A stretch of DNA of 61,031 nt from Candidatus Poribacteria bacterium. Lineage in GTDB: Bacteria > Poribacteria > WGA-4E > WGA-3G. The stretch lies in the NCBI GenBank assembly GCA_028821605.1, contig JAPPFM010000019.1:1-61031 (forward strand). The letters run 5' to 3'. A program made the translations under genes and the position numbers. A model generated the notes under the pieces. It ran no database searches and had not been told where the DNA came from. It worked only from the letters and a program-made list of their open reading frames with translations. This document shows, piece by piece, positions 13,768 to 38,700 of the stretch; the first letter of the stretch is position 1, and the number at the start of each line of letters is the position of its first letter.

Positions 13768-14688
13768 CTAAATCGTAGAGAGAAATACCGCGTTTGCCAA
13801 AACCACTTGCGTCAAGCCATGTTTGATATGTTTGACGAGTGTGTTTTTTACCAATCCATTCTGAGTTGTGCCACCATAGCGTGGACGTTTACCCCCTTTT
13901 TGAGGGAGCTGTCTGTGAAGTTCGCGTCTGGCAAGAGGGATCGGTGAAACACATATCACGTCTGTATTATCAGGGACAGAAACACCACCAACACTATGAT
14001 GTGCCAAACACCAACTATCTACACAGTGTGCCTCAAATGTTTCTGAAAGTTTCTTAGCGGATTTTTTCAGTCCAAACCTATCACGTATCTCTTTGGTCTC
14101 CCACCCTTGAAGGGTGAATAACTTCCAACGCTTCTCTATTTCAGTATAAAACCATTGTTTACCAACTTCAAGTGGACTAAAAGAGGTATTCCACTTCTTA
14201 GCACGTTCTATCGTCCGTGCCTTAATATCCTCGACACAAACACGCGTTATGGGATAGAGTCTCGAAAGCCAATGAAGTATCCTTAACTTCCAATCCCACC
14301 TCGCACGGGTGCCTGCGGGGATACGCTCCTTGTTCGCAAGACGGTTCGTTCTGTTTTTTCGGTTTGGACACTTACGAGAGCGTCTACTCCTGCGTAACTC
14401 ACGACGCTTTTCAACTTTCTTACCCACTTTATTATGAGCGTCCGCCTGCACGTTCAAATAGGTATGCTTCTCTGACTTAACAGTAAATCCCTCTTTCTTA
14501 CTACCGGGGTCTACACCTACGACTACATCTTGCGTGTATTCGTCTTCTGTAGCATAGTTAAGTCTGATACAGAATATACCATTAGACCAATAGGGCGTGG
14601 CTAAGCCTTTCTTAATCAGCATGCCGGCTTTGTTCGCATGCGTAGGCATTAACTTCTTACCAGATTGACTCTTTACGGGAACAAACAT
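13768..14688 (-). CDS. isrB: IsrB-like RNA-guided nickase (RRXRR domain protein)
   Basis: A 306-residue protein. The PLMP-like N-terminus (KKLMPTHANKAGMLIKKG, residues 11-28) is followed by RuvC-I with D60 (VVVGVDPGS), an arginine-rich bridge helix (RRELRRSRRSR, 95-105), RuvC-II with E153 (VCVEDIKA) and RuvC-III with H221/D224 (HCVDSW). The C-terminus has RRELHRQLPQKGGKRPRYGGTT, typical of the IscB/IsrB target-interaction domain. There is no HNH domain between RuvC-II and RuvC-III, which separates it from IscB. All three RuvC acidic residues are present. By family knowledge it would use an omega-RNA and nick the non-target strand; activity here is untested. The ATG follows GGGAG. Confidence 0.8.
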   Translation of the reverse strand: MFVPVKSQSGKKLMPTHANKAGMLIKKGLATPYWSNGIFCIRLNYATEDEYTQDVVVGVDPGSKKEGFTVKSEKHTYLNVQADAHNKVGKKVEKRRELRRSRRSRKCPNRKNRTNRLANKERIPAGTRARWDWKLRILHWLSRLYPITRVCVEDIKARTIERAKKWNTSFSPLEVGKQWFYTEIEKRWKLFTLQGWETKEIRDRFGLKKSAKKLSETFEAHCVDSWCLAHHSVGGVSVPDNTDVICVSPIPLARRELHRQLPQKGGKRPRYGGTTQNGLVKNTLVKHIKHGLTQVVLANAVFLSTI

Positions 14689-14895
14689 CGTTTGTAATCT
14701 CCCTTACGGGTTGTATATTGCCCCATTCAGATCACAGTATCCAAGAGGAATCAGACTTGAGGAGCATCCGAAACATTGTGCTGGCTGCCACGCCAAGAGA
14801 CTGCGATATATTACTGTAGAAAACCGTTTAACTTGTGGGTCCCCGTGTGGCTACGGATGTTCACAAGCCCAAGTCTTCAGACTTGGGTAGTTGAC
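14689..14895 (-). ncRNA. Candidate IsrB omega-RNA scaffold
   Basis: The ~207 bp between the element's left end and the isrB start fold into several hairpins: CCCAAGTCTGAAGACTTGGG, and CTTGTG...CACAAG enclosing CCGT...ACGG. The sequence recurs at 22756-22937 without the protein gene, with stretches such as ACGGTTTTCTACAGTAA and GGCGTGGCAGCCAGCAC unchanged. IscB/IsrB omega-RNAs are encoded at this place, with the guide 5' of the scaffold; here the guide would come from the bases just beyond 14895. Confidence 0.6.
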
Positions 14896-22514: not shown

Positions 22515-22527
22515 ATGTGGGTTGAAC

Positions 22528-22649
22528 AGGACTTACGCAGAAAGCGAATATTCGGATGAAAGGATGGAAGGCAGGGAAGGATGGAACCCACCATCCACAC
22601 TTCCAATCCTCCGATTCTGCAGGAAAGGAAGGAGTTTTGCGTAAGCCCT
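22528..22649. mobile_element. MITE with AGGACTTACGCA terminal repeats, copy 1
   Basis: A 122-bp element. AGGACTTACGCA at the left end is mirrored by TGCGTAAGCCCT at 22638-22649, with an inner palindrome (GGATGGAAGG ... CCATCC). No coding capacity. A relative with the same ends is at 51824-51944. Confidence 0.75.
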
Positions 22650-22689
22650 ATTGAAGAAAAATGGGGTAAATGAAACCATAAAAATTGTA

Positions 22690-22718
22690 TTGCATCAAGT
22701 CTGAATTCATGTTAAAAT
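22690..22718 (+). promoter_or_regulatory. Promoter-like boxes before the orphan omega-RNA copy
   Basis: TTGCAT (22690-22695), a 17-bp spacer and TAAAAT (22713-22718). A transcript from ~22725 would begin about 30 nt before the omega-RNA-like scaffold. It could also serve the S41 protease gene. Confidence 0.5.
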
Positions 22719-22755
22719 AAAAGCGAATCTCAAAATGTTGACAAAGTTAAGGTAA

Positions 22756-22937
22756 GTCAACTACCCAAGTCTAAAGACTTGGGCTTGTGCGAAGCGCATG
22801 CCGAGCGTCCACTCCACAAGGTAAACGGTTTTCTACAGTAAACTATCGCGGTATCTTGGCGTGGCAGCCAGCACTATGTTTCGGATGCTCCTCAAGTCTG
22901 ATTCCTCTTGGGTACTGTGATCTGGATGGGGCAACAG
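22756..22937 (+). ncRNA. Protein-less copy of the IsrB omega-RNA region
   Basis: Starting at GTCAACTACCCAAGTC, this segment follows the plus-to-minus counterpart at 14895-14714 closely. It keeps the first hairpin, ACGGTTTTCTACAGTAA, GGCGTGGCAGCCAGCAC, TTTCGGATGCTCCTCAAGTC and GATTCCTCTTGG. One hairpin loop is different in sequence, but its closing stem CTTGTG/CACAAG is kept. No isrB follows; similarity ends near GGGGCAAC. It may be a relic or a guide-RNA gene acting in trans with the 13.8-kb protein. Confidence 0.6.
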
Positions 22938-23094
22938 ACACCCACGAAAGCGGCGTTTGACATGGTAACATGTCGTATTTGATATGTTTGGCATGCGTTG
23001 GTACTTTTTATTGTAGTATTCATACCGTCAAGGCACGCTAACAACCCAACACCCGCCTACATCCCAAACCTGAAGGATTGGGCCTTGGCGGGAG
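22756..23094 (+). mobile_element. Internally deleted IsrB element
   Basis: The left end is nearly the same as in the full element. The right part has a hairpin, ATCCCAAACCTGAAGGATTGGG, at 23061-23082, in the place of the right-end hairpin CCCACGTCTGAAGACTTGGG of the complete copy. About 120 bp between them match nothing I recognise. The whole looks like a non-autonomous derivative. Confidence 0.5.
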
Positions 23095-23131
23095 AAAATA
23101 GATAAAATTTAGATCTACAAAGGGAACTCTC

Positions 23132-24676
23132 ATGAAAAGATACACTTTGTCCTTCATCGTTTTAGTGATTGCTATCGGCATTCCATTTCTGCTCATTACG
23201 CCAAATGAAAGAGATGTCATGAGTGGAGATGAACGCGTGACGCGCGAGTTGCTAAACGACGCGCTCAGAAAAGCGATTCAAATTGCGACAGAGAATTATT
23301 ATAAGCCGATAGAAGATCCCAACAAGATGTATCGTGGTGCGATCAAAGGGGCATTGGCATCCCTTGAAGATGACTACACGTACTATATCTTGAGGCGTGA
23401 GCATCAGCGCGCTGTCGAAAATCTCTACAAAGCAGAATTTGGAGGACTTGGTGTTCAAATCTATAACGACCACCGTGGGTTCATTAAGATTTCTAAACCG
23501 ATTCCGAATACACCCGCTGCGCTCGCGAACCTCCAAGCGGGCGATTACATTACCAAAGTCGATGGCAAGCGGATCCATCTGAGCGAAAAAACTGGTATGA
23601 CTCGTGCCAGCGTGATTGATTTACTGAGAGGAAAAACCGGCACCGATGTAACGATCACAGTGCAACGCAAATTTCTTGAACCCTTTGAAGTAACACTAAC
23701 GCGTGCCATTGTTCCGATCAGGAGTGTGAAGTCCACAATGCTTGACGGGAATATCGGGTATATTCAGATTTCAGGGTTCATCGGAAGCAAGGAGGGGACA
23801 GAAGAAGAGTTTAAAAATGCACTCACAGCGCACCAAGCCGCTCGCATGAAAGCCTTGATTTTAGATTTACGAGGCAATCAAGGTGGGCTTCTGAACGCTG
23901 CATATCACATCGCCGATGCCTTTATTGACAAAGGTCTCATCGTATCAACAAAAAGCGAAACAAACAGTAAATTTGATGAGGAATATCCGGCGACGCCCAA
24001 TCTTTCATGTCCATCAGATATCCCCCTCATTGTCCTCGTCAATGAATATAGTGCGAGTGCTTCCGAAATCGTAGCGGGCGCGATTAAGGATACGCGTCGC
24101 GGGATACTCGTTGGACAGAAAACTTACGGCAAAGGGGTCGTCCAAAAACGCTACGAACTGCCAGATCGCAGCTCAATGTCGCTCACGATCTCAACCTATT
24201 ATACACCAAATGGCACCTCAATTAACGAGGTAGGGATTACGCCGCAGGTCTCCATTGAACGTGAAGAACCGGACGAGATAGAAAGCATAATGCGCAGAAA
24301 GGTGGATTCAACCGATTCCGTCGAAGATTTTGTCTCAAAATGGATCGATGACGCACACCAGACACCTGGCGAAATGCCAAAAGATTTCTCTCTGCTTGAA
24401 AAGGATCTTCCTAAATTGCAGCGAACGCTTGAAGCAGACAATATTACCGTCGACCTACAATGGTTGAGACAGCGTGCAGAGCAGTACTTTAACCTCTATG
24501 TCGGTATCGACAAAGTAGTGAATTTACCGTACGACCGACAATTGAAGGAGGCAATCCGCATCATTGAAGCGAATGAAGTTGAGAAGTATCTCAATCCGAT
24601 ACCTGAAACAGCGGAACCGCCTTCAACGACACAAGCGAATATGCCTCCGGAACATGAGACGACAACTGAAGAATAG
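23132..24676 (+). CDS. S41 C-terminal processing protease with PDZ domain
   Basis: A 514-residue exported serine protease. Signal peptide YTLSFIVLVIAIGIPFLLI (~3-21). An N-terminal helical part includes the DDYTYYILRREH motif. The PDZ domain (~90-190) has GLGVQIYN. The catalytic core has the Ser in NEYSASASEIVAGAIKD (~310) and the Lys in TYGKGVVQ (~334), about 25 residues apart as in CtpA/Prc. A C-terminal helical extension ends in a Pro/Thr-rich tail. It degrades or trims periplasmic proteins; targets unknown. Confidence 0.92.
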   Translation: MKRYTLSFIVLVIAIGIPFLLITPNERDVMSGDERVTRELLNDALRKAIQIATENYYKPIEDPNKMYRGAIKGALASLEDDYTYYILRREHQRAVENLYKAEFGGLGVQIYNDHRGFIKISKPIPNTPAALANLQAGDYITKVDGKRIHLSEKTGMTRASVIDLLRGKTGTDVTITVQRKFLEPFEVTLTRAIVPIRSVKSTMLDGNIGYIQISGFIGSKEGTEEEFKNALTAHQAARMKALILDLRGNQGGLLNAAYHIADAFIDKGLIVSTKSETNSKFDEEYPATPNLSCPSDIPLIVLVNEYSASASEIVAGAIKDTRRGILVGQKTYGKGVVQKRYELPDRSSMSLTISTYYTPNGTSINEVGITPQVSIEREEPDEIESIMRRKVDSTDSVEDFVSKWIDDAHQTPGEMPKDFSLLEKDLPKLQRTLEADNITVDLQWLRQRAEQYFNLYVGIDKVVNLPYDRQLKEAIRIIEANEVEKYLNPIPETAEPPSTTQANMPPEHETTTEE

Positions 24677-37285: not shown

Positions 37286-38216
37286 ATCTCCCCTCCTTGA
37301 ATCCAGAAATCCGAAGGTAGCTTTCATATCGGAGTGGATTAATATCGCCGGTTTCAACTGCGCGTTTGACGGCGCATGATGGCTCGTGCTGGTGCGTACA
37401 GGCTGCGAATTTACACTCTGGGATATAAGAACGCATCTCCGGAAAATGAATATCTAATCCCTGTTCATCATCAATTTCAAGCAAGCCGAGGGTACGGATA
37501 CCGGGTGTATCTGCGACGAACCCACCGAATTCAAGTGGTAGGAGCATGACTTCCGTCGTCGTATGCCGCCCTTTGTGGATGCGCTCGTCTACTTCACCTA
37601 TGCGCAATTGGAGCCCTGGCTGTAAGGCGTTGAGCAGAGAGGACTTCCCGACCCCCGATGAACCTACAATCGCTGAAATTCTGTTTTTCATCACCCCCCG
37701 TAATTCTTCAATACCAACTCCGGTTACAGTACTAGTATAAACCACTTTATAACTTAATTCTTCATATAAATTGAGTTCGCGTTGTACGTTCTCGAATTTT
37801 GCCAAATCAAGTTTGTTAATACAGATAACCGGTTCCACGTCAGATGCCTCCGCGGTAACGAGAAATCTGTCAAGCATTCGGAGTTTGAGGGTTGGGTGTC
37901 GTGCGGCGAAAATGATGAGCAGCATATCAAGGTTGGCGACGATAACCTGTCGCCAACCATCCATTCGGATACGTCCAAATTGGGTTTCGCGCGGGAGACA
38001 TTCCTCAATGTACCCGTTGTCTGTTGCAGATGTCGCAGGAGAGATACGGACTCGATCACCAACAGCGACTAAATCGACGTACGGCATCTCTTTCGTCTCA
38101 GCGAGTCGCCGCTTTTCATCTTCAATGAGGTGATGCCGCAAGGCACAAGTATAGCACTGTTTGCCAACCTGTACCTCATAAGCACCACCTCGTGCTTTTA
38201 TGACAATGCCTTCCAT
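37227..38216 (-). CDS. rsgA: Ribosome small-subunit biogenesis GTPase RsgA
   Basis: A 329-residue circularly permuted GTPase. The OB domain (1-110) is followed by G4 (ICINKLDLAKFE), then G1 (IVGSSGVGKSSLLN, ~190), G2 (GRHTTTEV) and G3 (VADTPGIRTLGL). A zinc knuckle follows (CKFAACTHQHEPSCAVKRAV). It checks the decoding site of maturing 30S subunits. The tail is very basic (KKRTDRNARRRRR). infA lies 118 bp upstream on the same strand, giving a small translation-related group. Confidence 0.93.
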   Translation of the reverse strand: MEGIVIKARGGAYEVQVGKQCYTCALRHHLIEDEKRRLAETKEMPYVDLVAVGDRVRISPATSATDNGYIEECLPRETQFGRIRMDGWRQVIVANLDMLLIIFAARHPTLKLRMLDRFLVTAEASDVEPVICINKLDLAKFENVQRELNLYEELSYKVVYTSTVTGVGIEELRGVMKNRISAIVGSSGVGKSSLLNALQPGLQLRIGEVDERIHKGRHTTTEVMLLPLEFGGFVADTPGIRTLGLLEIDDEQGLDIHFPEMRSYIPECKFAACTHQHEPSCAVKRAVETGDINPLRYESYLRISGFKEGRYERNSDKKRTDRNARRRRR

Positions 38217-38334
38217 ATTTAGATTTACCTGTAGAAGCGTTCAGCTTATAAACTGAAAACTTTTACTGTCTTGGCACAGCAGAACAGGGCACGTTTAGAG
38301 GAAGCCTCAGAATTTAATCATACGGCCGCGCCTA

Positions 38335-38616
38335 TCAAGCACCCGGATTTCGCCAGATAATGCGTCCACGCGTCAGGTCATAAGGCGAAAGTTCAAGGGT
38401 GACTTGGTCGCCGGGAAGCACCCAGATTTTGTGCTGCATCAGTTTGCCAGCGAGGTACGCCACAACTTTGTGGTCGTTCTCTTCTAATTGTACATGAAAC
38501 AGATTACCCGGTAGGGATTCCAGAACTGTCCCAAGTACACGGATAGCTGCGTCTTTAGTAGATTCTCGTGCGTTAGTAGATTCAACGGTTTGGGGGGTTA
38601 CATTTTCATTTCTCAT
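38335..38616 (-). CDS. infA: Translation initiation factor IF-1
   Basis: A 93-residue OB-fold protein. [31 protein letters not shown] and the end motif [10 protein letters not shown] match IF-1. A ~20-residue polar N-terminal extension precedes the core, and IF-1 is normally ~72 residues. The ATG follows AAGGAGAAAATAG, so the long start is well supported. It binds the 30S A site during initiation. It is not in a ribosomal-protein operon here. Confidence 0.88.
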
Positions 38617-38650
38617 TTTCTATTTTCTCCTTTTTGTAATTGTTTGTTAC

Positions 38651-38677
38651 TTTATACACTGTATTGGATGCACTTTG
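38651..38677 (-). promoter_or_regulatory. GCATCC box motif, copy 4
   Basis: On the minus strand CAAAGTGCATCCAATACAGT then GTATAAA, ending 34 nt before the infA ATG. Confidence 0.5.
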
Positions 38678-38700
38678 TTAACGAATTGTTCGGAAAAAAG

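Follow-up and report, generated by a model that had tools for sequence, protein, structure and literature searches.

MITE- and PATE-type derivatives of IS200/IS605 insertion sequences have two hairpin ends and no open reading frame (ORF), and depend on a transposase supplied in trans. The closest described guide RNA is the omega-RNA of IsrB (HEARO, Rfam RF02033), one of the OMEGA RNAs of IS200/IS605 elements, the compact fold of which could favour use in trans (PMC9581776). Standalone omega-RNAs able to function with IscB have also been described (Altae-Tran 2021, as cited in PMC9581776). The locus analysed here (the 'orphan') lies in a contig of a Candidatus Poribacteria bacterium (the 'window', meaning the whole 61,031-nt stretch of DNA that was analysed), and is an IS200/IS605-type element of approximately 346 bp (22756-23101) with no ORF and with both transposon ends present. 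It resembles the IsrB omega-RNA in the 5' position of the guide, in S1, SL1 and SL2, in the nexus and adaptor pseudoknots, and in the overlap with a transposon end, but it has a conserved hairpin instead of isrB behind it and, like the isrB-linked copy in the window, falls below the Rfam gathering score. With the standalone IscB omega-RNAs, as far as these are described in PMC9581776, it has in common that no effector gene is linked to the guide scaffold and that an action in trans is proposed. It differs from them in being of the IsrB type and in forming a mobile element of defined limits, which has two ends, an empty counterpart site and an interior RNA specific to its family. MITE- and PATE-type derivatives are alike in their ends, lack of an ORF and dependence on a transposase in trans; to these the orphan adds a full guide-RNA scaffold and a conserved interior RNA. 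Among the top matches in the limited open-access literature searched, no report linked Poribacteria with IsrB, IscB, TnpB or HEARO. From sequence comparisons, we consider the orphan to be probably a protein-less, non-autonomous element with an IsrB omega-RNA as cargo. This RNA would be transcribed from a promoter of the host, and IsrB proteins encoded elsewhere in the genome would use it in trans.

The initial annotation had described a protein-less omega-RNA locus with long blocks identical to the isrB-linked copy, and both points were borne out. The region 22756-22943 matched, in inverted orientation, the scaffold (14709-14895) preceding the isrB gene of the window, over 34 nt at 97% and 130 nt at 92% identity, and an intact IsrB-type scaffold was found with no isrB between it and the right end of the element. 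A scaffold search of the 6.0-Mb genome gave 10 places, eight of which were isrB-linked, the others being the locus at 22756 and a candidate second orphan (C55), which on reading resembled the right end of a TnpB-type element in inverted orientation and was set aside. One hairpin interior had been noted as changed within a retained CTTGTG/CACAAG stem; the stem is indeed kept, and the hairpin within it is nearly identical to that of the isrB-linked C13 and C10 copies. Decay of this interior was ruled out, as it represents the C13/C10 form and its stem covaries.

The structure of the scaffold (22756-22939, forward strand), which doubles as the guide-side transposon end, was drawn up after the IsrB omega-RNA described in PMC9581776, and covariation was scored across 44 scaffolds of the genus (42 located beside a near full-length isrB, and the two window copies). 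Altogether 93% of cells were paired and 24 pairs had changed on both sides, so that the compensatory changes proposed as a check in the initial annotation were found; the covariation score was 0.27, whereas shuffles scored 0.12 +/- 0.005 and slid positions of the structure no more than 0.08. Both pseudoknots showed exchanges of pairs in the same set, the adaptor pseudoknot between G-C (28) and A-U (15), the nexus pseudoknot between A-U (25) and U-A (16). Both pseudoknots are kept in the orphan, the UGCC/GGCA adaptor pairing being present, and 46 of its 48 nested and nexus pairs are formed, with both misses in S1 and common to 28 of the 44 sequences. The isrB-linked scaffold of the window (14702-14895, reverse strand) forms 43 of 48, a comparison that favours the orphan since the structure was drawn on it. 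The tip length of the orphan scaffold in the tree was ordinary (0.076), and single-sequence folding was uninformative (z -0.3). Matches to RF02033 were weak (16.2 bits for the orphan and 22.1 for the isrB-linked window copy, with a gathering score of 83); as the isrB-linked copy also falls below this threshold, the score does not discriminate, and it excludes genuine Poribacteria copies. By its predicted fold, with guide-adaptor stem-loops together with nexus and adaptor pseudoknots, the orphan scaffold is of the IsrB omega-RNA type.

At the other side of the element, the distal end (23050-23101, forward strand) contains a hairpin, CCCGCC..GGCGGG. Of this end, 26-31 nt align with the ends of the C13 and C10 isrB elements, and approximately 50 nt align, in inverted orientation, with the upstream ends of TnpB-type elements. 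Judged from its two family-specific ends and the clean empty site in relatives, the locus is an IS200/IS605-type non-autonomous element. A profile search found two PF01797 matches above cut-off elsewhere in the genome, and these Y1 transposases are candidate trans mobilisers. End hairpins common to TnpB-type and IsrB-type elements, in inverted orientation, were also seen at L010:488-522, at 22756-22789 of the window and at L179-L187, which suggests that both types of element are mobilised by a common set of transposases.

These observations could also be explained by a passenger, a MITE-like non-autonomous element in which the ends alone matter for mobilisation by TnpA, while the omega-RNA is kept through its overlap with the end and guides nothing. 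The two hairpin ends, the lack of an ORF and the two Y1 transposases elsewhere agree with such an element, as does the finding that the first scaffold hairpin of an IsrB omega-RNA also forms part of the transposon end (PMC9581776). A bare MITE needs its ends alone, however, and covariation extends to the parts of the scaffold distant from the end, to both pseudoknots and to the interior hairpin; a mere passenger is thus regarded as rather unlikely.

The insertion site was resolved from three close relatives (G029, G034 and G021, with S41 proteins 90-93% identical), in which the site is empty and the left flank to 22748-22755 abuts the right flank from about 23102. The element is followed by ATAA (23102-23105), the presumed target-adjacent motif (TAM) after resealing, this border being uncertain by 1-2 nt in the empty-site alignment, and by a gene for a 514-aa S41 (CtpA-like) protease (23132-24676, forward strand; Pfam PF03572 and PDZ), the leader of which holds the element. 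Among named records, the best matches to this gene were from Poribacteria metagenome-assembled genomes, at 81-91%. Upstream lie a -35 box, TTGCAT (22690-22695), and a -10 box, TAAAAT (22713-22718), separated by a 17-nt spacer. A consensus promoter scanner scored both boxes under its threshold; the region is nonetheless conserved, with TTGCA and GTTAAAAT kept across 11 aligned element-free relatives (L061 having one substitution in the second box). Because the boxes are conserved in relatives that lack the element, the promoter (22690-22718, forward strand) is that of the S41 gene, and a promoter borne by the element was ruled out by the empty sites. The boxes proposed earlier are real, but belong to the protease gene and not to the RNA locus, and the element, as aligned, separates this promoter from the start codon of the gene. 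Just upstream of the promoter, a separate repeat of about 127 bp (22526-22652) has terminal inverted repeats GGACTTACGC/GCGTAAGTCC and 13 matches in the genome.

With a start near 22725, a transcript would begin about 10 nt ahead of the guide. The predicted guide (22736-22755, forward strand) derives from the S41 leader and adjoins the start of the scaffold, its 20-nt boundary being set by analogy with DtIsrB (PMC9581776). The genome-wide search for guide matches proposed in the initial annotation gave no second match to 22733-22755 with up to three mismatches. Given its position between promoter and start codon, the element would be part of the mRNA leader if transcription reads through, and it could in principle alter S41 expression through the structure that it gives to this 5' leader, with no guiding role; since one genome alone has the element at this site and sister elements precede unrelated genes, this is highly improbable. 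With the site empty in G029, G034 and G021, the insertion is young, and the intactness of the RNA at this single site may reflect its age; it demonstrates intactness and, because of the youth of the insertion, is not proof of selection there.

No isrB was present in 22940-23131, and no isrB remnant was detected between the scaffold and the right end by DNA search or by comparisons of the interior. The interior begins with an SL7-like terminal hairpin (22940-22953, forward strand; assigned from position and sequence) with one A.C mismatch, followed by a terminator-like, six-pair hairpin with a GUAA loop (22959-22974, forward strand), which lies immediately 3' of the scaffold, and by a long hairpin with a UAUUCAU-type loop (22986-23044, forward strand), which replaces isrB. 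A plain DNA search of 38 genomes gave no match to the interior, the right end alone being matched, and homology emerged only through hairpin comparison and covariance models. A 33-nt ungapped match between the orphan and L273 spans the SL7-like and GUAA hairpins (0 of 2000 shuffles), and the stem of the latter is compensated in L273. The long hairpin is common to L193 (p 0.004, in a comparison run after the resemblance had been spotted by eye), L102 and L273. A first two-sequence model (R1) recovered its own two members alone in the genus, while a covariance model (R3) built from C19s, L102 and L273 and run on 85 genomes of the phylum produced four new matches (E 1.7e-4 to 4.6e-4), every one of them directly behind an IsrB-type scaffold without isrB. 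In total, the hairpin was found at eight loci (four genomes, four species), with double changes in 13 of 16 pairs and a covariation score of 0.76 against 0.25 +/- 0.04, in an alignment of nine rows (the eight loci and one antisense match) that was fitted to the model. Five of the eight loci are in one genome, and some members (L102, L288 and L289) have no recognisable distal end hairpin. The orphan is, on this comparative evidence, a member of a small family of protein-less omega-RNA elements in which the scaffold is followed by the UAUUCAU-loop hairpin and not by isrB.

That the interior is isrB debris was ruled out by its conserved hairpin, which recurs in protein-less elements elsewhere in the Poribacteria. 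Internally deleted copies with isrB fragments do occur in the genus (L112, L128, L144 and L268), and the orphan is a single young insertion, as would be expected of a relic formed by recent internal deletion of an isrB element and now decaying. No isrB fragment is left in it, however, its interior is common to protein-less elements of other species, its pairs are kept and its branch length is ordinary, which makes a relic quite improbable. Between the two possibilities raised in the initial annotation, relic and trans-acting guide RNA, the latter is favoured comparatively by the covarying fold, the pseudoknots, the two ends and the protein-less family, with its promoter and partner revised. 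The trans-acting reading is itself weakened by the youth of the insertion, the mismatch in the SL7-like hairpin and the concentration of the interior hairpin in one genome.

A near full-length isrB was located beside 59 of the first 80 scaffold loci. Among these 80, a protein search found no isrB match at L094, L102, L112, L135, L158-L160, L162 and L166, and small isrB fragments were recognised on reading at L094 and L112. Another protein-less family, larger than the first, likewise has ends and a scaffold of the IsrB type; in this second family they are followed by SL7 and a different covarying RNA domain of about 125 nt (GACACCGGGUCAGGUC..GAAGCAGCCC), which stands where isrB would start (L135, L158, L159, L160, L162, L166, L217-L219, L225, L226, L229-L234, L240-L243 and L252). 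The model for this family had 50 matches in 23 of 85 Poribacteria genomes, in two genera, and the element context was read at about 20 of them. Capture of SRP RNA by this family was considered from GGUCAGGUC/GAAGCAGCC and a likeness to SRP helix 8 noted by eye, and was rejected, as the Rfam SRP models gave no match. Three further loci, L254 (in this genome, G000:C10 about 38178-38690), L255 and L256, are apparent protein-less TnpB-type elements with the GUCAGG..AAGCAG domain of the second family, so that the two types of protein-less OMEGA element seem to be marked by a single RNA module. The related protein-less elements across Poribacteria suggest that such RNAs may borrow a nuclease from elsewhere in the genome.

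The isrB gene of the window (13768-14688, reverse strand; RRXRR domain, with a partial match to the IscB model) had been proposed as the partner of the orphan. It is frameshifted before the C-terminal, TAM-contacting region, as judged by translation and comparison with full-length relatives (sequencing error being possible in a metagenome-assembled genome). The flank of its element is moreover ATGA, in contrast to the ATAA of the orphan, of C13 and of C10; the proposal was therefore abandoned. Seven full-length isrB genes (335-346 aa) are present elsewhere in the genome, and the C13 IsrB matches the solved IsrB structure 8dmb (E 2.7e-30). In IsrB, R323 contacts the third TAM base and Q326 the fourth (PMC9581776). 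ATGA mostly flanks elements with proteins containing KRLCQNAK or KRLTTGAK, ATAA flanks all four KQVV elements (C13, C10, L089 and L092), and ATGG flanks C59, the protein of which carries KRIVRGAK. A putative natural TAM code (KR..Q/T with ATGA, KQVV with ATAA, and KRIVR with ATGG) is in line with the DtIsrB R323 and Q326 contacts, the equivalent positions having been assigned by eye. As the orphan is flanked by ATAA, and as L089, among its closest scaffold relatives found (92%), has a full-length isrB of the ATAA type, the C13 and C10 IsrB proteins would be its natural partners, and they are most likely better candidates than the window isrB.

The right flanks of 45 isrB elements were scored (isrB elements such as L093, L104, L113, L120, C9, C46 and C59), and in 37 of the 45 the distal end is followed directly by ATGA. 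In 27 elements this ATG begins a reading frame that extends for 40 codons or more, or that runs off the stretch, with a purine-rich GAAGA 6-9 nt before it; from these contexts, isrB elements are seen to insert at start codons.

Trans use of the orphan RNA by IsrB is our best inference from these comparisons. The host promoter would transcribe the guide (22736-22755) together with the scaffold, and a full-length IsrB, most likely the ATAA-type C13 or C10 protein, would bind the RNA in trans. A Y1 transposase, also acting in trans, would excise the element and reseal the site, whereupon guide and ATAA would together constitute a complete target; nicking of the resealed target by IsrB would then favour the element being copied back. 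An element in place divides its own target in two, and the chromosome would therefore be safe for as long as the element stays there.

Standalone omega-RNAs have already been noted for IscB, whereas the family here is a delimited mobile one in which a guide RNA is combined with an RNA domain replacing the nuclease. Hijacking of a host promoter illustrates how transcription of the guide could be achieved by an element that brings no promoter with it. Trans use is directly testable, as the RNA, candidate nucleases of full length and two transposases occur together in one genome, and it bears on the separability of guide and effector, a step from OMEGA to CRISPR-Cas9. More tentatively, the protein-less OMEGA lineages of Poribacteria may be ones in which dedicated RNA domains have replaced the nuclease gene, their RNAs being selected to capture the IsrB or TnpB of other elements, as parasites or partners, and the added domains doing the former work of the linked gene (processing, stability or effector recruitment).
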